Of a stretch of 64,000 bases of DNA, positions 52,707 to 63,652 are shown in pieces (the stretch's first letter is position 1; each line of letters opens with the position of its first letter). The notes beneath the pieces were generated by a model. The model was not told where the DNA came from and did no database searches. It worked only from the letters and a program-made list of their open reading frames with translations. Made by a program: the position numbers and the translations under genes. This DNA is from Echinicola marina. GTDB taxonomy: Bacteria; Bacteroidota; Bacteroidia; Cytophagales; Cyclobacteriaceae. Where the stretch lies: assembly GCF_020463795.1 (NCBI RefSeq), contig NZ_CP080025.1:2167501-2231500 (forward strand), in the 5' to 3' direction.

Positions 52707-54245
52707 TTACCCGGCCATTTTTGCCAGGTTGTGGGCGATGGCAATCAATCCGGTTTCAATTGCTACTTTTTCGGCTCCTCTTAACATAAACCTTGCCCTC
52801 CCTTTGTTGTGTTTGAAGTCTGCAAATACCGGTTCCACATCGGTGGCCCGTTGCCTTCGTTTCTGGACTCCCTGCTCAGAGGTGAGTCGTTGTTTTGCCC
52901 TTGTCTTCTGTTGCTGTAACCTGGTGTTTACCCTGAGGGTTTTGTTACCGGCCCCTGGTCTACAACTAGCAGCCAGTGGGCACCCCTGGCAATTTTTGGC
53001 TGCATAGTGCCGGTAATGCTGGACAAAACCGGTCGAGGTTTTTCCGGTACTTTCCCCACTGGGTTTCATCGCCTGTCCCATCGGACAGATGTAGTGATCT
53101 TTCTGTGGATCGTAATACAGGTTTTCCAGCAAGCCATGGACTTTCTTTGATTTGGATTCCTGACGGAGTTCTTTGTGGAAGGTGTTGTACTTGACGTAAG
53201 CTTCGATCCGGTTCTGCTCCAGAAAGCAATAGTTCTCTTCACTTCCGTATCCAGCATCTGCTGTACAACAGGAAGGGTAGAATCCGTAATGCTGATGGTA
53301 CTGCTGTAGATGAGGCTTCAGGGTTAAGGTATCATTGGGATTGGGATGCAGGGAATAGTTGACCACGAACCGTCCATGGGTGCTGAGTTGAAGGTTGTAG
53401 GCAGGTTTGAGCTGGCCATTTCTCATATGGTCTTCCTTCATCCGCATGAACGTGGCATCCGGATCGGTTTTGGAATAACTGTTCCGTCCAGCCAGTACTT
53501 CCTCTTTCTGGGCATATTCTTCCAGTTTGGCAGGCCAGTTCTTTTGGGCATAACCCAACTTCTGTTTCACCTTCTTGTCAACGGCTTTCCCTTCCAGCGC
53601 CTGATTGATCTTTTCGATGGTTCGGGAAACTTTCTCTGCACTCGGATTCACAAAGTCGGGTTCTTCTGTCCCCAACTCAGCGGAGGCTACCGAACCGGCA
53701 TAGTTCCAAAGTTCCTGAAGCTGGGAGCTGATCCGTTCCTTGCTCTTTTTAATCGCCTTGCCCCAGACAAAGGTGTAGCGGTTGGCATTGGCTTCTATCT
53801 TGGTCCCATCGGTGTACACTTCTTTGATGTCCAAAAGTCCTTCTTCATGCAGCAACAGCACCACTTGGGCAAAAATATCACCAATCACATCTCGGAGACG
53901 TTCTGAACGGAACCGATTGATTGTATGGTGATCGGGACGCTGCATTCCGGCAAGCCACATGAACACAATATTCTCCCGGACCGCTTTTTCAAGCTTGCGG
54001 GAAGAATAACAGTTCTCTAAATATCCATAAACCAGCACCTTTAACAACAGCTTGGGATGATAACTGCTAGATCCGTTCTCTGAGTATCGACCATACACCT
54101 CGCTCAGATCTATCCGCTCAATGATCTGGTGAACTACACGGCCTGGATGATGGACGGGAATCAATTCCTCCAAACTGGGAGGAAGAAACATCAGTTGGTT
54201 GGGATTGTAGTCTTTAAAAGCTACATTTAAGTCTTGTTTTTGCAC
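52707..54245 (-). CDS. IS1182 family transposase
   Basis: A 512-residue DDE transposase, apparently intact. The N-terminal DUF772-type helical domain (HPKLLLKVLVYGYLENCYSSRKLEKA) is followed by the catalytic residues: Asp in YTDGTKIEANANRY near 143, Asp in CCTADAGYGSE near 327 and Glu in DVEPVFADFKHN near 477. A Cys-rich insertion (CQGCPLAASC) sits between the second and third acidic residues, as usual in IS1182. Codon and base use are more GC-rich than the neighbours, consistent with arrival from elsewhere. Confidence 0.95.
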   Translation of the reverse strand: MQKQDLNVAFKDYNPNQLMFLPPSLEELIPVHHPGRVVHQIIERIDLSEVYGRYSENGSSSYHPKLLLKVLVYGYLENCYSSRKLEKAVRENIVFMWLAGMQRPDHHTINRFRSERLRDVIGDIFAQVVLLLHEEGLLDIKEVYTDGTKIEANANRYTFVWGKAIKKSKERISSQLQELWNYAGSVASAELGTEEPDFVNPSAEKVSRTIEKINQALEGKAVDKKVKQKLGYAQKNWPAKLEEYAQKEEVLAGRNSYSKTDPDATFMRMKEDHMRNGQLKPAYNLQLSTHGRFVVNYSLHPNPNDTLTLKPHLQQYHQHYGFYPSCCTADAGYGSEENYCFLEQNRIEAYVKYNTFHKELRQESKSKKVHGLLENLYYDPQKDHYICPMGQAMKPSGESTGKTSTGFVQHYRHYAAKNCQGCPLAASCRPGAGNKTLRVNTRLQQQKTRAKQRLTSEQGVQKRRQRATDVEPVFADFKHNKGRARFMLRGAEKVAIETGLIAIAHNLAKMAG

Positions 54246-54415: not shown

Positions 54416-55162
54416 TTACAACTCTTTGATCATGATGTTTTTAAAGAAAACATTGTTCCCGTGATCTTGGAGGGCGATTTTGCCTTTTTTGTAAATACCA
54501 AAATGTTCTGCGTTTTTGAATTTGCTTCCCGCGATAAGCGCTTTCCAGCTGTCATCCCACATGGTGGTTTCTACGGTAGTTACACCATTCAGTTTGAAGG
54601 TCAGTTTGCCGTCATTGACAATAATTTCAGTGGTATTCCAGTCGCCTACTGGATTGGAAGCTTCTTCAGTTGCCTGGATCATGTCGTATAGATCTCCTGT
54701 GCGGTGTTTTAGGTTTTTGCCGTCAGGGTGGCCTTCATCATCCAATAACTGGTATTCAGGTCCTGTTACATAAGGATGTCTGAATTGCTCCTCTTCATGG
54801 ACCATAAACATGATTCCGGAGTTGCCATTATCAGAAATTTTCCATTCCAGTTTAAGATGGAAATTGCTGTATTCGTCTTTGGTTACAAGGTCTCCTCTGC
54901 CTTCCTTTTCAGAAGAGTCTAGGTATAAGACACCATCTTTTGTTTTCCAGGCTGAACCTAGGGTTTCTTTATTATAAGTTTTCCAGCTGTCCGTATTGGA
55001 GCCATCAAAGAGAACGATCCAGTCACCTTCTCTTTTATCTGATGTACTTTCTGCTTTAACTTCCTCTTCTGAGGTGGAAGTGTTTTCGTTATGCTGACCA
55101 GATCCACATGCGGTAGTGGCCAGCATAACAAGGGCTGATAGGGATAATAAGGTTTTTTTCAT
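54416..55162 (-). CDS. DUF1080 lipoprotein, putative 3-keto-disaccharide hydrolase
   Basis: A 248-residue protein with a lipoprotein signal (VMLATTACG, Cys19) and a low-complexity Ser/Glu linker. The DUF1080 domain is a concanavalin-like beta-sandwich: WIVLFDGSNTDSWKTYN, GVLYLDSSEKEGRGDLVTKDEYSNFHLKLEWKISDNGNSGIMF and a final strand block. Some members are known to cleave 3-keto glycosides made by glucoside 3-dehydrogenases. The order of genes upstream (cytochrome c, isomerase, Gfo/Idh/MocA) and the GMC dehydrogenase on the other strand fit that role well. Separated from the cytochrome gene by a terminator, so its level can be set independently. Confidence 0.88.
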   Translation of the reverse strand: MKKTLLSLSALVMLATTACGSGQHNENTSTSEEEVKAESTSDKREGDWIVLFDGSNTDSWKTYNKETLGSAWKTKDGVLYLDSSEKEGRGDLVTKDEYSNFHLKLEWKISDNGNSGIMFMVHEEEQFRHPYVTGPEYQLLDDEGHPDGKNLKHRTGDLYDMIQATEEASNPVGDWNTTEIIVNDGKLTFKLNGVTTVETTMWDDSWKALIAGSKFKNAEHFGIYKKGKIALQDHGNNVFFKNIMIKEL

Positions 55163-55174
55163 AGGGATAATGAT

Positions 55175-55197
55175 AAAAAAGAGGGCACTAAGCCCTC
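55175..55197 (-). terminator. terminator or attenuator between cytochrome c and DUF1080 genes
   Basis: GAGGGC at 55181-55186 and GCCCTC at 55192-55197 form a perfect stem with a five-base loop; read on the minus strand it is followed by six T. It lies between co-oriented genes only 45 bp apart. Confidence 0.8.
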
Positions 55198-55207
55198 TTC
55201 ATTGGGT

Positions 55208-55630
55208 TTATTTTTTTAATAATAAAATGTATTTCACCATTTTTTTTGCATCATCTTCGGACAGGCCGGGGTGAGCAGGCATTGGTACCTCACCCCAAAC
55301 GCCAGAGTTTCCTTTGACTACGTGTTCGGCCAGGGTAGCAATATTTTCTTCAGTGTTTTCATACTTGGCTGCTACATCCTTATAAGAAGGGCCTACAATT
55401 TTTCGCTCAACCATATGACAGCTCATACAATCAGATCCTTTAACAAGCGTCTGTCCTTCAAGGTAGGCAGGATTGTCCTTGTACATTTCGTCAAAACTCA
55501 TTTCCTTTTCAGGTGCAGTAGCAGCTGGAGTGGAAGTAGTTTCTGTTTTTGTGTCTGATCCACCTCCACATGCGTAGGCAAATCCTGCAAGAGCTATTGC
55601 GCCTGCGCTAGCTAATTTGCTGATATTCAT
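55208..55630 (-). CDS. c-type cytochrome lipoprotein (class I, single haem)
   Basis: A 140-residue protein with a signal ending at Cys21 (FAYAC) and a Thr/Ala/Glu-rich linker. One haem motif CMSCH is near 68-72, preceded by GQTLVKGSD and followed by VGPSYKDVAAKY; MPAHPG near 118 supplies the axial Met. This is the standard periplasmic cytochrome that accepts electrons in sugar and alcohol oxidation. Here the donor would be the GMC/subunit-3 dehydrogenase 5 kb away on the other strand (inference). It follows the isomerase gene by 29 bp. Confidence 0.92.
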   Translation of the reverse strand: MNISKLASAGAIALAGFAYACGGGSDTKTETTSTPAATAPEKEMSFDEMYKDNPAYLEGQTLVKGSDCMSCHMVERKIVGPSYKDVAAKYENTEENIATLAEHVVKGNSGVWGEVPMPAHPGLSEDDAKKMVKYILLLKK

Positions 55631-55659
55631 TGATTCTATAGGTTTGATTTGGTATGTAA

Positions 55660-56712
55660 TTAAATTCCTAATATTTTTTTGTTCAGCGCTTCATCTGTGC
55701 CGGCAGATGCAAAATCATCAAAGGTTTTTTCTGTTACTCTGATGATCTTTTCACTGATAAATTTAGCGCCTTCGATGGCACCGGCTTCAGGGTGCTTGAT
55801 GGCGCATTCCCACTCAAGTACTGCCCATCCGTCAAAGTCGTACTGGGACAATTTACTGAAAATGGCATTAAAGTCGACTTGCCCATCTCCAAGGGAACGG
55901 AATCTGCCTGCCCTATTGATCCAACTTTGATAACCTCCGTAGACGCCTTGTTTTCCGGTTGGGTTGAATTCAGCATCCTTGACATGGAACATTTTGATTC
56001 TGTCATGATAGAAGTCAATGAATTCCACATAATCCAAGCATTGCAAAAGGAAGTGACTTGGATCGTAAAGGATATTTGCTCTTGGATGGTGATTTACTTT
56101 TTCAAGGAACATTTCGAAAGTCACTCCATCATGCAAATCTTCTCCGGGATGCAATTCATAGCATAAATCTACACCATTTTTATCAAATTCATCCAATATT
56201 GGTAACCACCTTTTTGCCAGTTCTTCAAAACCAGCCTCTACCAGTCCTGCAGGTCGTTGCGGCCAAGGGTAAACGGTGTGCCACATAAGTGCACCGCTAA
56301 AAGTGGCATGGGCTGTGAGTCCAAGGTTTTTGGATGCTCTGGCAGCATACATTAGTTGCTGACTTGCCCAGGCAGATTTACCGGCTAGGTCTCCCTTTAG
56401 TTCTTCAGGAGCAAAAGCATCAAATAATTCATTATAAGCGGGGTTGACTGCTACCAGTTGTCCCTGTAAGTGTGTACTCAGTTCTGAAATCTCTAGTCCC
56501 GCATTTTCAACAGTACTCTTGATCTCATCAGCGTAGGCCTGGTCCTCAGCAGCCTTTTGCAGATCAATAAACCTGCTATCCCAACTAGGGATTTGTATGG
56601 CTTTGTATCCAATACTGCTGGCCCACTCGCTGATACTTTTTAGGCTGTTAAATGGGGCGTTATCATCTGCAAACTGTGCTATAAATAAGGCAGGGCCTTT
56701 GATGGTTTTCAT
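55660..56712 (-). CDS. sugar phosphate isomerase/epimerase-like TIM barrel (cytoplasmic)
   Basis: A 350-residue xylose-isomerase-like TIM barrel. There is no signal peptide, unlike the two TIM-barrel proteins on the plus strand. Metal ligands can be read: Glu in CYELHPGED near 181, Asp in LYDPSHF near 214, His in FHVKDAE near 240 and Glu in VLEWECA near 294. AP endonuclease family 2 proteins of this kind include 3-keto-sugar epimerases and hydratase-like enzymes; the exact step is unknown. It follows the Gfo/Idh/MocA gene after a 148-bp spacer with a long hairpin. Confidence 0.88.
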   Translation of the reverse strand: MKTIKGPALFIAQFADDNAPFNSLKSISEWASSIGYKAIQIPSWDSRFIDLQKAAEDQAYADEIKSTVENAGLEISELSTHLQGQLVAVNPAYNELFDAFAPEELKGDLAGKSAWASQQLMYAARASKNLGLTAHATFSGALMWHTVYPWPQRPAGLVEAGFEELAKRWLPILDEFDKNGVDLCYELHPGEDLHDGVTFEMFLEKVNHHPRANILYDPSHFLLQCLDYVEFIDFYHDRIKMFHVKDAEFNPTGKQGVYGGYQSWINRAGRFRSLGDGQVDFNAIFSKLSQYDFDGWAVLEWECAIKHPEAGAIEGAKFISEKIIRVTEKTFDDFASAGTDEALNKKILGI

Positions 56713-56804
56713 ACGGTAGGTATTTATAAGTTTATATCATTAATCGTTTTAGCAAATGTCGTTCCTGCAAATTAAGTTCTTTAGAAGTATTTTTTAGCAT
56801 TTCT

Positions 56805-56837
56805 GAAGCATTTTGTCTTCAAAAGACTAAATGCTTC
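56805..56837 (-). other. intercistronic hairpin in the sugar operon
   Basis: GAAGCATTT at 56805-56813 with GTCTT at 56815-56819 pairs with AAGAC at 56823-56827 and AAATGCTTC at 56829-56837: 14 paired positions, one mismatch and a three-base loop. No T run follows in either direction, so it is not an ordinary terminator; an RNA stability or processing element between two co-transcribed genes is the simplest reading. Confidence 0.65.
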
Positions 56838-56860
56838 ATCACAGGATTTTGTCCAAAACA

Positions 56861-58027
56861 TTATAATTCAAATTTAGTCCATTTTTGCTCGGATTGTCCA
56901 CTTTTGACTACATGCTCTATAAAAGCCATTCCTCTTAGACCATCTTCGGTTCCAGGAAAGTCAAGCCATTCTTTTTCAGGTATCTGTCCATTGGATTGGG
57001 CCAGAAGCGTCCTAGCGAAATTTCTGTAATGGTTGGCAAATGCTTCAAGGTATCCTTCTGGGTGTCCTGCAGGAGTTCTGCTATTGGCCAAAGCATAGGA
57101 GGAAAGATAGCTATTATTGGCTCCTGCGCGATATATTTGGTCAGGCTGCTCGGGGTGTCTAATGATGAGGCTATTGGCATCCTCTTGCTGCCATTCCAGA
57201 CCTGCCTTGTCACCGTATATTCTGATTTTGAGGTTGTTTTCTGCTCCTGTTGCGATCTGGCTTGCCATTAGTACGCCAGAAGCGCCATTGTCAAATTTGA
57301 GTAATACTATTCCATCATCATCCAAGACCCGTCCCGGAAGGGTGGTGTTTAAATCTGCACAAAGCTTGTCCAGTTTAAGTCCACTTACATATTCCGCTAA
57401 GTTCATGGCATGGGTACCAATGTCTCCCATACATCCTGCTACTCCACTTCTCTTGGGGTCAGTTCTCCAGCCAGCCTGTTTGTTTTCTTCTTCCGAGAAG
57501 TCTTTCCATAACCAGCCCTGAGGGTATTCTACATACACCTTTCTGATATTTCCCAAGGTGCCATTAGCTACTAATTGTCGGGCTTCTTTTACCATGGGGT
57601 ATCCCGTATAAGTATGGGTCAGGCAAAATAGCAATCCTGTTTCTTCGATCACCTTATTTAACTCCTTGGCCTCTTCGTAAGTCAGGGTCATTGGTTTATC
57701 AAGGACCACATGGAAACCGTTTTTCAGTGCTTTTATGCTTGGATCGAAATGGACATGATTAGGGGTGACAATACTGACGAAGTCGATTCTTTGGTCTTCA
57801 GGGAGTTGTTTCTCCTTTTCGAACATTTCATCATAGGATTGGTAAATTCTATGGCTTTCCAAGCAAAGTTCTGCTCCTGCTTGGGCAGATTTTTCAGCAT
57901 TGCTACTAAAAGCTCCTGCTACCAATTCTATTTTACCATCCATATTTGCAGCTATGCGGTGGACTGCTCCAATAAAGGAACCGGGGCCCCCGCCGATCAT
58001 GCCCATACGAAGTTTGCGTTGATCCAT
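56861..58027 (-). CDS. Gfo/Idh/MocA family oxidoreductase
   Basis: A 388-residue NAD(P)-dependent sugar dehydrogenase. The Rossmann motif GMIGGGPGSFIGAVHR is near 8-23, the DKPMTLTYEEA motif gives the catalytic Lys near 110, and GCMGDIGTHAMNLAEYV near 203-219 carries the active-site Asp and His. No signal peptide, so it works in the cytoplasm. In 3-keto sugar pathways such enzymes reduce the keto sugar back to the ordinary hexose. First gene of the minus-strand operon, starting opposite the permease gene. Confidence 0.93.
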   Translation of the reverse strand: MDQRKLRMGMIGGGPGSFIGAVHRIAANMDGKIELVAGAFSSNAEKSAQAGAELCLESHRIYQSYDEMFEKEKQLPEDQRIDFVSIVTPNHVHFDPSIKALKNGFHVVLDKPMTLTYEEAKELNKVIEETGLLFCLTHTYTGYPMVKEARQLVANGTLGNIRKVYVEYPQGWLWKDFSEEENKQAGWRTDPKRSGVAGCMGDIGTHAMNLAEYVSGLKLDKLCADLNTTLPGRVLDDDGIVLLKFDNGASGVLMASQIATGAENNLKIRIYGDKAGLEWQQEDANSLIIRHPEQPDQIYRAGANNSYLSSYALANSRTPAGHPEGYLEAFANHYRNFARTLLAQSNGQIPEKEWLDFPGTEDGLRGMAFIEHVVKSGQSEQKWTKFEL

Positions 58028-58302
58028 TTTTGTTTTATTGATTATATGTTGGGATTAATTTTCATTAATTAAGTATTAATTCGTCTAATTTTTAGTCTTT
58101 TTACAGACAAAAGTGACCAAAAGCAATATAGTATTACGAGTGGTTGTGTTTTTAAGGAATAGATAATTTATACTTACGTCCTTGAGATACAAAAACTAAA
58201 ATTAAATGAAAAACGCTAAAATTTAAATTAATATTTAAGTAGTTTGGCTTTTCATTTTAATGATGAAATTTTAACAACAATCAAAAACCCGTATTAAACC
58301 TT
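58028..58302. promoter_or_regulatory. 275-bp divergent control region of the sugar locus
   Basis: The gap between the Gfo/Idh/MocA gene (minus) and the permease gene (plus) is the only place from which both operons can start. It is very AT-rich. I found no exact TAnnTTTG on the minus strand; TAGTTTG near 58240 is one base short on the plus strand. No regulator gene lies in the locus. Confidence 0.5.
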
Positions 58303-59535
58303 ATGAATTTTACCACCAAGTTTAAGCTGTCCTTCATGATGTTTCTTGAATTTTTCATCTGGGGCGGTTGGTTTGTAACTTTGGGATTGTTCCTAGAGAA
58401 GAACCTTAGCACAACGGGGGCGCAAAGTGCTGCGGCATTTTCCACCCAGTCATTTGGAGCCATTATCGCTCCTTTTATTATAGGCTTAATTGCCGATAAA
58501 TACTTTAACGCAGAGCGAATTTTGGGAGTGTTGCACATCATCGGAGCGGTCTTGATGTTCCAGATGTACAATGCCGAAGATTTTTCCACGTTTTACCCAT
58601 ATGTGTTTGCCTATATGGTAGCCTATATGCCGACCTTGGCATTGGTCAATTCGGTTTCCTTCAACCAGATGAGCAATCCTGAAAAAGAATTTGGATCCAT
58701 CAGGGTTTGGGGTACCATTGGCTGGATTGTAGCAGGATTGGTGATCAGTTTGGTGTTCGGTTGGGATTCAGCCGAAGGAGCAGGCCAAGGCTTGCTAAGG
58801 AATACCTTCTTGATGACTTGCATTGCTTCTGGTGTTTTGGGTATTTATAGCTTTGCCCTTCCAAAAACACCGCCTAAAATCTCTAAGGGAGAGAAAAAGT
58901 CTGTTTCAGAGATATTGGGATTGGATGCCTTTGCCTTACTCAAGGATAAGAACTACTTGATATTTTTCCTTGCTTCGATCATGATTTGTATTCCGTTGGC
59001 CTTTTATTATCAGAATGCCAGTTTGTTTTTGGGAGAGATTGAAATGACGAATTTAACAAGTAAAATGGCTCTGGGTCAGGTGAGTGAGGTGCTGTTTATG
59101 TTGCTTCTGCCAGTTTTCTTTAGTAAGTTCGGAATCAAGAAAACCTTATTGGTGGGGATGATTGCCTGGGTTGTCCGGTATGCATTATTTGCATTTGGCA
59201 ATGTAAATGAGCTTTCATTCATGCTTTTGATAGGGATTGCTCTTCATGGAATTTGCTATGATTTTTTCTTTGTATCGGGTCAAATCTATACAGATTCCAA
59301 GGCGGGCGAGAAGTTCAAAAGTGCTGCTCAAGGTATGATTACTTTGGCTACTTATGGTGTAGGTATGTTGATTGGTTTCTGGGTAGCCGGAATGATCACC
59401 GATGCCAATACAGGTGCTGATGGATTGCACAATTGGGAAACTATTTGGTTGATTCCGTCTGGTATTGCGGTTTTGGTAGCTTTGATTTTTGCTTTGGCAT
59501 TCAAAGAAAAGAAACCAGCACCAGTAACGGCATAA
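58303..59535 (+). CDS. MFS transporter, nucleoside:H+ symporter type
   Basis: A 410-residue permease with about 12 membrane helices. FEFFIWGGWFVTLG near the N-terminus and FGSIRVWGTIGWIVAGLVIS near 131-150 are typical of the Nuc_H_symport/NupG-like MFS group, which in Bacteroidota often accompanies sugar oxidoreductase genes. Substrate here is probably a sugar or keto sugar (inference). First gene of the plus-strand operon; the TIM-barrel gene follows after 14 bp. Confidence 0.9.
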   Translation: MNFTTKFKLSFMMFLEFFIWGGWFVTLGLFLEKNLSTTGAQSAAAFSTQSFGAIIAPFIIGLIADKYFNAERILGVLHIIGAVLMFQMYNAEDFSTFYPYVFAYMVAYMPTLALVNSVSFNQMSNPEKEFGSIRVWGTIGWIVAGLVISLVFGWDSAEGAGQGLLRNTFLMTCIASGVLGIYSFALPKTPPKISKGEKKSVSEILGLDAFALLKDKNYLIFFLASIMICIPLAFYYQNASLFLGEIEMTNLTSKMALGQVSEVLFMLLLPVFFSKFGIKKTLLVGMIAWVVRYALFAFGNVNELSFMLLIGIALHGICYDFFFVSGQIYTDSKAGEKFKSAAQGMITLATYGVGMLIGFWVAGMITDANTGADGLHNWETIWLIPSGIAVLVALIFALAFKEKKPAPVTA

Positions 59536-59549
59536 TACAGGTCTAGAAA

Positions 59550-60416
59550 ATGTCAGAGAGAAGATCCGCATTAAAGAAAATGATAATGGGCACTGCTGCG
59601 ATAAGCGGCATGCCCTATTTGAATTTAAACGCAAAGAATAACCAAAAAATGCTTAAAGGGAATATCAACCATTCTGTTTGTAGATGGACTTATGGTCATT
59701 TATCCTTAGATGAATTATGTGTATTGATTAAGGATATTGGATTTAATGCAATAGACTTAATGGGACCAAAAGATTGGCCTATAGCCCAAAAACACGGGGT
59801 GTACAGTTCTATGTGTAATGGAGCTGAAATCAGTCTTGAGGAAGGTTTTAGTCATACTGAATTCCATGATGAGCTGATTAAGAATTATACTGAAATGATT
59901 CCTCTGGTAGCAAAAAATGGTTATAAAAATCTTATCTGTTTCAGCGGGAACAGAAACGGAATGGATGATGAGACTGGACTCCGGAACAGTGTGAAAGGCT
60001 TACAGCAATTATTGCCTTTGGCAGAAAAGCATGGAGTGACCTTGGTGATGGAATTATTGAACAGTAAGATTGATCACCCAGATTATATGTGTGATAAGAG
60101 TGTATGGGGCGTGGAATTGTGTAAGCGCCTTGATTCAGATAATTTTAAACTGCTTTATGATATTTATCATATGCAGATCGATGAGGGAGATGTGATCAGG
60201 ACAATTGGAGAGAACCATCAGTATTATGGACATTACCATACAGCTGGTAATCCAGGAAGAAATGAAATAGATGATACCCAAGAGCTAAATTATCCTGCGA
60301 TTATCAAGGCTATAGCTCAGACGGGTTTCAAAGGATATATTGCCCAAGAATTTATTCCAAAGGCAAAAGATAAGAACGCTTCCTTAAGGGAGGCCATAGC
60401 ACTATGTGATATTTAA
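59550..60416 (+). CDS. hydroxypyruvate isomerase-like TIM barrel, exported
   Basis: A 288-residue TIM barrel with a twin-arginine-like leader (SERRSALKKMIMGTAA). Metal ligands are readable: Glu in VMELLNSK near 168, Asp in LLYDIYHMQ near 204, His in GHYHTAGNPGR near 228-238 and Glu in GYIAQEFIP near 264. NPGRNE is the hydroxypyruvate isomerase signature. With an export signal, however, it should act outside the cytoplasm, which argues against its namesake reaction and for a role on keto sugars. It lies 14 bp after the permease and 28 bp before the GMC gene. Confidence 0.87.
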   Translation: MSERRSALKKMIMGTAAISGMPYLNLNAKNNQKMLKGNINHSVCRWTYGHLSLDELCVLIKDIGFNAIDLMGPKDWPIAQKHGVYSSMCNGAEISLEEGFSHTEFHDELIKNYTEMIPLVAKNGYKNLICFSGNRNGMDDETGLRNSVKGLQQLLPLAEKHGVTLVMELLNSKIDHPDYMCDKSVWGVELCKRLDSDNFKLLYDIYHMQIDEGDVIRTIGENHQYYGHYHTAGNPGRNEIDDTQELNYPAIIKAIAQTGFKGYIAQEFIPKAKDKNASLREAIALCDI

Positions 60417-60444
60417 CTTAAACCTATAAACCTTTAAATTTATT

Positions 60445-62124
60445 ATGGCTAATCAAGAGTACGATGCAATCGTAGTGGGCTCTGGAATAAGTGGTGGCTG
60501 GGCCGCCAAGGAGCTTACTGAGAAAGGCTTGAAGGTTTTGCTGCTAGAAAGAGGGCAAAATGTAGAGCACATCAAAGACTATAAAAATGCCACCAAGGCA
60601 CCTTGGGAAATCCCTCATAGGGGAAGAAGAACCACTGAGATGGTGGAAAATCACCCTAATTTGAAGCGGGACTATGTGCTCAATGAGCAGGTCCTTGATT
60701 GGTGGGCCCATGAGGATGATAGTCCTTATGTAGAAGAGAAGCCCTTTACTTGGTTCAGAGGATACCAAGTAGGAGGTCGTTCTTTGTTATGGGGGAGGCA
60801 AAGCTATCGCTGGTCTGATTTGGATTTTGAGGCCAATTTAAAAGAGGGGATTGCTGTTGATTGGCCGATAAGATATAAGGATATTGCTCCCTGGTATGAT
60901 TATGTAGAAAAGCATGCCGGTATCGCAGGGAATAAGGATGGTTTGGATGTTTTGCCTGATGGGCAGTTTATGCCTCCAATGGCCATGAACTGCGTGGAGA
61001 AGGATGTAAAGGAGAGGCTCGAAAAAAGTTTCGAAGGAAGACGTCACCTGATCAATGCCCGTATTGCCAATATCACAGAACCCCTTCCCGGGAGACCGGG
61101 TTGCCAATACCGAAATAAGTGTTGGTTGGGATGTCCGTTTGGTGGATATTTTAGTACACAGTCTTCTACTTTGCCTGCGGCAATGGCTACTGGGAATTTG
61201 ACCTTAAGGCCTTTTTCCATTGCCAACAGGGTGATCTATGACAAAGATGCCAAGAAAGCCACAGGGGTTGAGGTGATTGATGCTGAGACCATGGAGACTA
61301 TCGAGTATAAGGCTAAGATAGTGTTCTTGTGTGCTTCTGCTTTTAATTCTACTCAAATACTAATGCGTTCTGCCACTGATATCTGGCCAGAAGGATTGGG
61401 TAGTAGTTCTGGTGAGCTCGGTCATAATGTGATGGACCACCACTTCAGGTTAGGAGCCAGTGGAAGGGTAGATGGCTATGATGATAAGTATTATTTTGGC
61501 AGAAGACCAGGAGGTGTTTATGTGCCAAGGTTCCGTAACGTGGGGGATGACAAGAGAGATTACGTTCGTGGATTTGGCTATCAGGGAGGAGCCAGTAGAA
61601 GTGGGTGGAGCCGTAATGTAGGAGAAATGAATATTGGCGGTCCGCTTAAGGAGGCCTTGACAGCGCCAGGACCATGGAGCATGGGGATGATGGCTTTTGG
61701 TGAGATTTTGCCATATCATGAAAATACCATTAAATTGAGTAAAGAAGTAAAGGATAAGTGGGGAATGTATGCCTTGGTGATGAATGCTGAAATCAAGGAA
61801 AATGAGGAGAAGATGAGGAAGGATATGATGAACGATGCCGCTGAAATGCTTGAGGCTGCAGGTGTTAAGGATGTCCATACTTATGATTCGGGTTACACCT
61901 TTGGTCAGGGAATCCATGAAATGGGCACTGCTAGGATGGGGAGAGATCCTAAGAGTTCGGTTTTGAATGGTAATAATCAAGTTTGGGATGCGAAAAATGT
62001 TTTTGTAACTGATGGTGCGGCAATGACTTCTGCATCTGCGGTGAATCCATCCTTGACGTATATGGCTCTGACGGCCAGAGCAGCGAGTTTTGCAGTGGAG
62101 GAATTAAAAAAAGGTAACCTATAA
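60445..62124 (+). CDS. GMC oxidoreductase (putative glucoside 3-dehydrogenase catalytic subunit)
   Basis: A 559-residue flavoenzyme. The FAD dinucleotide motif VVGSGISGGWAAKELTEKG is near 9-27, RGYQVGGRSLLWGRQSYRW is near 104-122, HEMGTARMG near 491-499 carries the catalytic His, and VTDGAAMTSASAVNPSLTYMAL near 512-533 the second catalytic position. Cys clusters (CQYRNKCWLGC near 216-226) suggest an iron-sulphur or disulphide site. There is no signal peptide; in such systems the small subunit 3 carries the Tat signal and the pair is exported together. The next gene is exactly that subunit, 17 bp away. Confidence 0.92.
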   Translation: MANQEYDAIVVGSGISGGWAAKELTEKGLKVLLLERGQNVEHIKDYKNATKAPWEIPHRGRRTTEMVENHPNLKRDYVLNEQVLDWWAHEDDSPYVEEKPFTWFRGYQVGGRSLLWGRQSYRWSDLDFEANLKEGIAVDWPIRYKDIAPWYDYVEKHAGIAGNKDGLDVLPDGQFMPPMAMNCVEKDVKERLEKSFEGRRHLINARIANITEPLPGRPGCQYRNKCWLGCPFGGYFSTQSSTLPAAMATGNLTLRPFSIANRVIYDKDAKKATGVEVIDAETMETIEYKAKIVFLCASAFNSTQILMRSATDIWPEGLGSSSGELGHNVMDHHFRLGASGRVDGYDDKYYFGRRPGGVYVPRFRNVGDDKRDYVRGFGYQGGASRSGWSRNVGEMNIGGPLKEALTAPGPWSMGMMAFGEILPYHENTIKLSKEVKDKWGMYALVMNAEIKENEEKMRKDMMNDAAEMLEAAGVKDVHTYDSGYTFGQGIHEMGTARMGRDPKSSVLNGNNQVWDAKNVFVTDGAAMTSASAVNPSLTYMALTARAASFAVEELKKGNL

Positions 62125-62141
62125 TCTAACAAGACACGACT

Positions 62142-62693
62142 ATGGCAATGAACAGAAGAGATGCATTAAAGAGTGTTGTCCTCATGATGGGAGGAACCAT
62201 GGTGGGCGCTAATGCCATCCTGACAGGGTGTACACCGGAGAAGCAAATTGAAGGATTGGACTTTTCTCCGGAAGAGATCGCCTTTTTAGATGAAATAGGA
62301 GATACCATTATTCCAACTACAGATACCCCTGGTGCCAAGGCCACCGGAATAGGGGCGTTTATGGTGATGATGGTGAAGGATACCTATTGGGAAGAGGAGC
62401 AAAAGGAGTTTGTTGATGGTTTGAATGCCCTGAGGTCAGGTTTCAAAAGTGAAGTTGGTAAAGACTTCATGAAAGCAAGCCAAGAGGAAAGAACGGAATA
62501 TTTGAACAAGCTTAATGCAACTGTAAATGATGAAAATGGTCCGAAGTATTTTAGAATGCTTAAGGATTTGACCGTGTTGGGCTATTTTAGTTCTGAAATT
62601 GGGGCAACGCAGGCATTGAATTATGTGGAGGTTCCTGGTAGATGGGAGCCATGTATAGACTATAAAAAAGGCGATAAAGCCTATGCGATTTAA
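62142..62693 (+). CDS. gluconate 2-dehydrogenase subunit 3-like, Tat lipoprotein
   Basis: A 183-residue protein with a twin-arginine motif (NRRDALKSVVLMMGG) and a lipobox Cys (AILTGC, Cys28). The mature part (FSPEEIAFLDEIGDTIIPTTDTPGAKATGIGAFM) is the Gluconate_2-dh3 pattern. This small subunit escorts the GMC flavoprotein through the Tat system and ties it to the membrane. The pair forms an FAD dehydrogenase that hands electrons to cytochrome c. A strong terminator follows. Confidence 0.93.
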   Translation: MAMNRRDALKSVVLMMGGTMVGANAILTGCTPEKQIEGLDFSPEEIAFLDEIGDTIIPTTDTPGAKATGIGAFMVMMVKDTYWEEEQKEFVDGLNALRSGFKSEVGKDFMKASQEERTEYLNKLNATVNDENGPKYFRMLKDLTVLGYFSSEIGATQALNYVEVPGRWEPCIDYKKGDKAYAI

Positions 62694-62703
62694 ATTTTGA
62701 TAT

Positions 62704-62731
62704 AAAGGGGGAAGTATTTTCCCCCTTTTTT
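62704..62731 (+). terminator. terminator after the dehydrogenase operon
   Basis: AAAGGGGGAA at 62704-62713 pairs with TTCCCCCTTT at 62719-62728, followed by more T. The next gene starts 19 bases later. Confidence 0.9.
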
Positions 62732-62749
62732 AACCTATACCAACCCTGT

Positions 62750-63652
62750 ATGAAAGAAAGAAGAAAATTTATTAAGTTGGGCGCTGCATTTGCAGCAGGG
62801 GCCTTTTTACCTTTTCAGTTTTGCTCGTCTCCCAAGAAGGAGTCAGAGGTAATAGAAGAAGCAGTATCTGAGGCGGTAAAAGGGACTTTGGAAAGTTTTG
62901 GTGTTCAGCTTTATTCAGTAAAAGAGGACATGGCCGAAAATGCTCAAGAAACCATTAAAAAGATAGCTGGATTTGGTTATAATCAAATCGAAGGTTATGA
63001 TGGTGGAAAGGGAATCTTCTGGGGAATGAAAAATACAGAATTCAAATCCTTTACGAGTGATTTAGGATTGAATTTTATTTCTTCCCATGCTAATGTTTTT
63101 GAGAACACTGAGCAACTAGCAGAAGAGGCTGGAACTATTGGGATGAAGCATTTGATTTGTCCATATATTGGTCAGCAGGAGTCGATTGAAGCATGGAAGA
63201 AGATGGCTGATCGTTTTAACAAAGTAGGGGAAGCCTGTAAGCAAAATGGATTGAGGTTTGCTTATCATAATCATGGTTATACATTTGAAGAAATGGAAGG
63301 TCAATTGCCTCAAGATGTCCTCTTAGAGTATACAGACCCTGAACTAGTGGATTTTGAATTGGATATCTACTGGGCCGTGACTGCAGGTGTGGATCCTGAA
63401 ACTTATTTTAAGAAGTATAAGGACCGTTTCCGTCTTTGTCATGTGAAAGACAGGGAAAAAGGTGCTGCGAGTGGAGAGGGAAATGCTTCCACGGTTCTGG
63501 GTACGGGAAGTATAGACTTTGCGAAAATTCTAAAGACTGCCAAGGAGAATGGAATGGAATATTATGTGGTGGAGCAGGAAAAATTTGAAGGAACTACTCC
63601 TTTGGAAGCAGCAAAAGAAAATGCCTTGTATATGAAAAAATTGGTGTTTTGA
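62750..63652 (+). CDS. sugar phosphate isomerase/epimerase-like TIM barrel, exported
   Basis: A 300-residue protein with a twin-arginine-like leader and lipobox (ERRKFIKLG...FQFCSS, Cys25). The barrel shows His and Glu ligands in AYHNHGYTFEEM near 171-182, Asp in DFELDIYWAV near 199-208, His in LCHVKDRE near 226-233 and Glu in YVVEQEKF near 279-286. It is the third AP-endonuclease-2-type barrel in the locus and, like the one at 59.5 kb, is exported. It sits behind a terminator, so it may be transcribed by read-through or from a short promoter in the 56-bp gap. Confidence 0.88.
   Translation: MKERRKFIKLGAAFAAGAFLPFQFCSSPKKESEVIEEAVSEAVKGTLESFGVQLYSVKEDMAENAQETIKKIAGFGYNQIEGYDGGKGIFWGMKNTEFKSFTSDLGLNFISSHANVFENTEQLAEEAGTIGMKHLICPYIGQQESIEAWKKMADRFNKVGEACKQNGLRFAYHNHGYTFEEMEGQLPQDVLLEYTDPELVDFELDIYWAVTAGVDPETYFKKYKDRFRLCHVKDREKGAASGEGNASTVLGTGSIDFAKILKTAKENGMEYYVVEQEKFEGTTPLEAAKENALYMKKLVF

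Follow-up and report, generated by a model that had tools for sequence, protein, structure and literature searches.

The window analysed here is a stretch of 64,000 nucleotides from the Echinicola marina genome (a single contig of 5.69 Mb, NZ_CP080025.1), and it contains nine open reading frames (ORFs) between positions 54416 and 63652 that are arranged as two divergent operons. We propose, at a probability of roughly 0.78, that this locus serves the use of external glycosides by C3 oxidation, elimination, hydration and reduction, in which the outer steps are followed by import and the last two steps take place inside the cell. The gene content, protein families, linkage and signal pattern of the locus were observed directly, and the nine genes are conserved together far beyond chance.

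Gene content and proposed route

The coordinates of all nine ORFs were confirmed, and Pfam placed their products in the families that had been named for them in an original prediction made from the DNA alone. The minus-strand operon comprises four genes (54416-58027) and the plus-strand operon five (58303-63652), with a gap of 275 bp between them. The Pfam families PF06439, cytochrome c, AP_endonuc_2 (in three proteins), Gfo/Idh/MocA, Nuc_H_symport/MFS, GMC N and C, and Gluconate_2-dh3 were each matched above their own cut-offs. Apart from PF06439 itself, no glycoside hydrolase family was matched by the nine proteins in Pfam at an E-value of 0.001, in agreement with the earlier statement that a classical glycoside hydrolase is missing. 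The features are as follows:

54416-55162, minus strand: DUF1080 (3keto-disac_hyd) lipoprotein, PF06439, putative enzyme of outer cleavage, a lyase or hydrolase acting on 3-keto-glycosides
55208-55630, minus strand: mono-haem cytochrome c lipoprotein, PF00034 with CxxCH, presumed electron acceptor of the dehydrogenase
55660-56712, minus strand: cytoplasmic TIM barrel, by full-length similarity to 8ro4 a 2-hydroxy-3-keto-glucal hydratase (AtHYD family)
56861-58027, minus strand: cytoplasmic Gfo/Idh/MocA oxidoreductase, PF01408/PF22725, presumed 3-keto-glucose reductase
58028-58302: region between the divergent operons, 275 bp
58303-59535, plus strand: major facilitator superfamily (MFS) permease of the nucleoside:H+ symporter family, PF03825, presumed importer of 3-keto-glycal or 3-keto sugar
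59550-60416, plus strand: TIM A, exported (twin-arginine), hydroxypyruvate isomerase/ketose epimerase type (TIGR03234, 3ngf, 6wn6), candidate 3-keto-hexoside 4-epimerase
60445-62124, plus strand: GMC flavin dehydrogenase, PF05199/PF00732, presumed catalytic subunit of a glycoside 3-dehydrogenase (LacA type)
62142-62693, plus strand: Gluconate_2-dh3 subunit (subunit 3), PF13618, twin-arginine signal, presumed carrier of the GMC protein
62750-63652, plus strand: TIM B, exported (twin-arginine), by similarity a 3-keto-beta-glucoside 1,2-lyase (8tcd, 8tcr, 8tct, 8bvk)

In the proposed route, the GMC protein would leave the cytoplasm together with subunit 3, by means of the latter's twin-arginine signal, and oxidise C3 of the terminal sugar; its electrons would pass to the cytochrome c lipoprotein. 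The weakened bond would be broken outside by the TIM B lyase, the DUF1080 lipoprotein or both, which would release the leaving sugar or aglycone together with 2-hydroxy-3-keto-glucal or 3-keto-glucose. The MFS protein would import the cleavage product; the cytoplasmic hydratase would convert the glycal to 3-keto-glucose, and the Gfo/Idh/MocA protein would use NAD(P)H to reduce 3-keto-glucose to glucose. TIM A would act outside on the 3-keto intermediate, possibly as an epimerase.

Conservation of the locus and copy number in the genome

The window locus was compared with 80 named loci, which were the best GMC matches; GMC is therefore present in them by selection and the sample is biased, less so in a family survey described below. 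Genes were counted by scripted identity cut-offs with a match to at least half of the query, and contigs ending in or near a locus make the counts lower bounds. Subunit 3 was found in 78 loci, TIM A in 68, the hydratase and the reductase in 65 each, MFS and cytochrome in 59 each, DUF1080 in 58 and TIM B in 40. All nine genes were present in 22 of the 80 loci, and eight (all but TIM B) in 34. The hydratase and reductase genes were on the same strand in all 64 loci having both and no more than 500 bp apart in 63 of these, and the divergent layout was kept in 59 of the 64. Among the named matches listed, those nearest by the GMC gene belong to Echinicola shivajiensis and E. salinicaeni (97% each), and the GMC protein is 82.6% identical to that of Indibacter alkaliphilus LW1.

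Across 148 genomes sampled from the family, the hydratase was matched in 104 (E-value of 1e-80 or better) and GMC in 107 (1e-150 or better). Among 45 close GMC genes (at least 69% identity), 38 had a hydratase gene within 12 kb, at a median distance of 4.8 kb; the remaining seven belonged to three genomes without a hydratase match at 1e-80 and four with the hydratase on another contig. The scattering of homologues among relatives that had been named beforehand as a sign against a common pathway was thus not seen.

The E. marina genome contains four GMC_oxred_C and four Gluconate_2-dh3 matches, which form four neighbouring pairs, versus one hydratase match at an E-value of 0.001 or better. In 12-kb stretches around the three other pairs, a tblastn search with the nine window proteins (1e-4) matched GMC and subunit 3 only; the absence of hydratase, TIM, cytochrome, MFS and DUF1080 matches in this search speaks against these loci as further copies of the pathway. 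Since one hydratase faces four dehydrogenase pairs and the other pairs have no hydratase nearby, the window locus is likely the common end point for 3-keto-glycals in this genome. A single hydratase match was also the rule across the sampled family: at 1e-80, 102 of the 104 genomes with a hydratase had one match and the other two had two. When ten chosen neighbours of the other pairs were examined with Pfam, one Gfo/Idh protein was found that tblastn with the window reductase had missed; the others belonged to unrelated families or none. This Gfo/Idh/MocA gene (L088:7405-8778) adjoins another GMC/subunit-3 pair, together with a GDSL lipase, and the neighbourhood is perhaps a different oxidation locus.

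Hydratase relatives were also found on 310 of 72,556 plasmid records (E-value of 1e-60). On an Agrobacterium plasmid, hydratase and reductase genes lie among ATP-binding cassette (ABC) transporter genes, with no GMC match in the 17-kb stretch, and the 330-kb Hymenobacter volaticus plasmid NZ_CP095062.1 (L084) has every kind of pathway component, nearly all on one strand. From these two loci, the hydratase-reductase pair looks like a module joined to differing entry steps. SusD and glycoside hydrolase family 65 (GH65) genes are located near the pathway genes on the Hymenobacter plasmid. Additionally, two loci of the gammaproteobacterium Paraglaciecola (L067, L075) contain reductase, hydratase, MFS, TIM A, GMC and subunit 3 genes on one strand, with a GMC protein 73% identical to that of the window; transfer between phyla is probable here.

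Predicted reactions and compartments

The cytoplasmic TIM barrel was aligned over residues 1-350 with PDB 8ro4 (E-value 2.8e-170, 569 bits), which is titled '2-hydroxy-3-keto-glucal hydratase AtHYD from A. tumefaciens', and it is 68% identical to its homologue on the Agrobacterium plasmid; we infer a hydratase reaction from this relationship. The reductase (PF01408/PF22725) is 50% identical to the Gfo protein encoded next to the hydratase on that plasmid, and it is weakly matched by NCBIfam models whose names refer to glycoside and disaccharide 3-dehydrogenases of Bacteroides. Judged by the Gfo relative, it is presumed to be a 3-keto-glucose reductase. A glycine pattern counted in the reductases was present in 0 of 65; the pattern was judged too narrow or wrong, and nothing was drawn from it.

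The predicted fold of TIM B (mean predicted local distance difference test (pLDDT) score of 88.5) matched the lyases AL1 (8tcd, 8tcr) and BT1 (8tct) with E-values of about 1e-20 and the eliminase AtOGE (8bvk) with 8.8e-14, and a sequence profile gave 5.1e-49 for 8tcd and 6.5e-26 for 8bvk. By their PDB titles, 8tcd and 8tcr from Alistipes and 8tct from Bacteroides thetaiotaomicron are 3-keto-beta-glucopyranoside-1,2-lyases; among relatives with a named activity, AL1 and BT1 are closest to TIM B. The model alignment included 33 of the 40 orthologues and the window protein. TIM B is accordingly named here as a putative 3-keto-glycoside lyase, on the strength of these relatives in sequence and predicted fold. 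The gut system of AL1 and BT1 begins with a Gfo-type dehydrogenase and not with GMC. The original prediction had described all three TIM barrels as isomerases within one nine-gene 3-keto pathway; the linked route holds in outline, but the isomerase label is not supported for two of the barrels, as the cytoplasmic one matches the hydratase AtHYD and TIM B matches lyases.

The DUF1080 lipoprotein is the second candidate for bond breaking. It matched PF06439 with 182.7 bits (cut-off of 26.8) and 14 solved sequences, of which 4jqt was the best and 8tda and 8v31 were others; the genome has twelve DUF1080 matches, eleven of them above the cut-off. It is possible, although we consider it rather unlikely, that this protein is the true bond breaker, acting outside as a 3-keto-glycoside hydrolase, that the cell takes up and reduces 3-keto-glucose or 3-keto-galactose, and that the lyase/hydratase branch is secondary or confined to beta-glucosides. 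The excerpts of PMC9007349 propose a DUF1080 protein as a 3'-ketolactose hydrolase and report that CCNA_01705 mutants are strongly impaired on lactose, and DUF1080 was found in 58 of the 80 loci, compared with 40 for TIM B. However, the hydratase stays beside the reductase in nearly all loci with both, and it would be left without a substrate if hydrolysis acted alone.

To assign compartments, N-terminal patterns were counted in the orthologues of the 80 loci and in the window copies, namely an arginine pair (RR) within the first 25 residues, a hydrophobicity cut and a lipobox-like pattern. The arginine pair was present in 79 of 79 subunit 3 proteins, 66 of 69 TIM A proteins and 41 of 41 TIM B proteins, and in none of the 81 GMC proteins, 66 hydratases and 66 reductases. 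Among the DUF1080 orthologues, 54 of 59 had a hydrophobic N-terminus and 44 of 59 the lipobox-like pattern; the corresponding numbers for the cytochrome were 59 and 39 of 60. The cut was also passed by 8 of the 66 reductases, perhaps through the Rossmann strand, and by one hydratase and one GMC protein. Oxidation and cleavage outside with hydration and reduction inside would be the simplest reading of these signals, and the counts support the earlier idea of a redox loop divided by the membrane and suggest that the division is conserved among relatives. The GMC protein itself had been described as exported; it carries no signal of its own, and the description can be retained only for a presumed passenger of subunit 3, following the known pairing in which such subunits carry GMC proteins out. 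An arrangement in which the 3-keto-glycoside enters the cell intact and is split there appears improbable: it would resemble loci with ABC transporters, such as that on the Agrobacterium plasmid, whereas both cleavage candidates of the window locus, DUF1080 and TIM B, have N-termini of the export type in most of their orthologues or in all of them.

All 80 loci encode a GMC protein with the motif Cys-x5-Cys-x3-Cys at position 220 and the motif H-x-[MT]-G. The cysteines align with three of the four cysteines of fructose dehydrogenase and are presumably ligands of an Fe-S cluster. An asparagine pattern ([VP]NP) was found in only 35 of the 80; this pattern was likewise judged too narrow or wrong, and nothing was drawn from it. 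Subunit 3 matched PF13618 with 128 bits, and the cytochrome (PF00034) has CxxCH in 59 of 59 orthologues; this lipoprotein is presumed to accept the electrons of the dehydrogenase. The C3 reading of the predicted dehydrogenase is adopted because of the hydratase and the lyase that would act downstream. The MFS protein matched PF03825 with 389 bits, above the cut-off of this wider family, and the nucleoside permease model TIGR00889 (NCBIfam) with 376 bits, below its cut-off of 446; its cargo would be a 3-keto-glycal or a 3-keto sugar. A nucleoside or other alcohol as the substrate of an oxidation system that merely resembles the 3-keto route is very improbable, since the nucleoside symporter match of the MFS protein and the likeness of GMC to fructose and glucose dehydrogenases are set against the alignment of the hydratase with AtHYD over its full length, the lyase match of TIM B and an MFS score under the nucleoside permease cut-off.

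Several observations weigh against the route of C3 oxidation, elimination, hydration and reduction. The closest solved relatives of the GMC protein by sequence are fructose and glucose dehydrogenases, which attack other carbons, although this likeness does not decide the carbon attacked, and the MFS family is named for nucleosides. The signals come from pattern counts and not from a trained predictor, and just 25 of 69 TIM A and 19 of 41 TIM B proteins passed the hydrophobicity cut. In 14 of the 80 loci, both hydratase and reductase are missing from the available stretch, some of these contigs ending close by. As TIM B was detected in just half of the loci, 40 of 80, cleavage in the remaining ones must fall to DUF1080 or to a lyase encoded elsewhere. 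Moreover, a lactose phenotype was absent in Pedobacter DUF1080 mutants according to the excerpts of PMC9007349, and the use of raffinose-family sugars was unaffected by Bacteroides BT2157/BT2158 deletions according to those of PMC11501099.

Known systems, TIM A and surrounding genes

Clusters of this type and reactions of these types have already been published, and the locus is of a known kind (PMC9007349, PMC10628242). The excerpts of the 2022 paper describe a cluster type of LacABC, DUF1080, a transporter, two epimerases and a reductase, and report neighbouring LacA and DUF1080 genes in Caulobacter crescentus, Halomonas titanicae, Algoriphagus aquaeductus and I. alkaliphilus LW1 (PMC9007349). 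The window locus has the same gene families: GMC, Gluconate_2-dh3 and cytochrome c are encoded together, as in LacABC, and DUF1080 has a transporter, epimerase-like proteins and a reductase nearby. The I. alkaliphilus locus (L006) contains all nine genes in the same order, 49 to 83% identical, and of the five subunit-3 and eleven DUF1080 matches in that genome, those of L006 form the sole pair separated by no more than 10 kb. In Caulobacter, according to the same excerpts, the transporter, the reductase and two sugar epimerases are important on lactose, and the fate of 3-ketogalactose is unknown (PMC9007349). They call the TIM proteins sugar epimerases and the cleavage hydrolysis, in contrast to the hydratase and lyase reading proposed here (PMC9007349).

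An Agrobacterium operon encodes the dehydrogenase GlycDH, the eliminase AtOGE, the putative hydratase AtHYD, for which the evidence given is preliminary, and a Gfo reductase; DUF1080, cytochrome and MFS are not mentioned in the excerpts of that paper (PMC10628242). The window locus differs in being divergent and in having two exported TIM barrels, and shares with the operon a TIM-barrel eliminase, a hydratase, a Gfo reductase and a dehydrogenase. We take GlycDH to be of the GMC type, and a Rhizobium GlycDH is reported to have been expressed together with a twin-arginine translocation (Tat)-signal protein. The levoglucosan pathway LgdA/B1/B2/C follows the same four-step logic of oxidation, elimination, hydration and reduction, established with four purified enzymes; its first step is NAD-dependent, and the excerpts mention no export step (PMC7676230). 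In openly licensed literature, no text was found that joins ketolactose with the keto-glycal, which does not imply absence from print. The present analysis adds likely reactions for two of the three 'epimerases', the conserved compartment split, the single hydratase versus four dehydrogenase pairs and the exported 4-epimerase candidate. Two proteins of the kind called epimerases in the published cluster description thereby gain testable reactions, and should it be the glycal that is imported, the transporter of a reactive intermediate would be available for assay.

TIM A matched TIGR03234 (3.9e-28), far below the curated cut-off, and by both sequence and fold it matched 3ngf, psicose epimerases and E. 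coli YcjR (6wn6), a 3-keto-D-glucoside 4-epimerase. The YcjR match had an E-value of 4.7e-07 by sequence and stood in the fifth Foldseek row, behind 3ngf and the psicose epimerases. The fold of TIM A was judged by Foldseek, and the model alignment comprised 44 of 68 orthologues and the window protein; E168, D204, H230 and E267, which we take to be metal and acid-base residues, were invariant in these 45 sequences. A Hyi-like motif (H-x-AGN-[PD]-GR) was present in 36 of 68 TIM A proteins. TIM A appears nearest to the hydroxypyruvate isomerase/ketose 3-epimerase group and is a candidate 4-epimerase; with the C-glycoside lyases 8un2 and 7drd in Foldseek rows 24 and 25, it may have a lyase role. 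Its gene directly precedes the dehydrogenase gene in 64 of 69 loci. In three Fulvivirga loci (L046, L047, L048), only TIM A, GMC and subunit 3 occur together, with no hydratase or reductase in the available stretch (L046 is a short contig), and TIM A may therefore act right at the dehydrogenase step.

A ketone at C3 erases the difference between galactosides and gulosides, and the paper on YcjR reportedly concerns the interconversion of D-gulosides and D-glucosides. Taken together with the fold class of TIM A and its place before the dehydrogenase, this chemistry means that TIM A could turn 3-keto-galactosides into glucose-type substrates of the lyase and hydratase, an idea that rests at the level of the fold. 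As a speculative extension, which we would regard as doubtful, glucosides and galactosides may share one funnel: exported TIM A would epimerise C4 of 3-keto-galactosides to give 3-keto-glucosides, the lyase would form 2-hydroxy-3-keto-glucal outside, the MFS protein would import the glycal, and the sole hydratase and reductase would serve all four dehydrogenase pairs. If true, this would answer where 3-ketogalactose goes and explain galactoside use, and the MFS protein would be an importer of a reactive 3-keto-glycal, to our knowledge the first. The exported epimerase candidate reduces the 3-ketogalactose question to one enzyme assay.

A comparison of the regions between the divergent operons gave no common operator that we would claim. 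Of 43 such regions, one from the window and 42 from named loci, those of the three nearest relatives (L001-L003) were left out, and the other 40 were searched for shared 10-mers and palindromes; the best 10-mer, present in 13 of the 40, was AT-rich. A PADLOC scan for defence systems with the DUF1080 and TIM A proteins gave no match. To the left of the locus, an IS1182-family transposase ORF (52707-54245) adjoins the 3' end of the DUF1080 gene. On the right, the next ORF begins 255 bp past the last gene (L081, 16408-17052) and by eye does not resemble a pathway gene, and the locus therefore ends near 63652. About 2 kb past the locus are four tRNA genes (Lys, Pro, Arg and Lys, identified by eye; L081:18026-20000). 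The 3' end of a recombinase-like ORF on the opposite strand overlaps the last tRNA-Lys gene (L081, 18424-18497), and Tra-like conjugation genes follow (L082, by eye), so that this region looks like an integrated conjugative element at tRNA-Lys.

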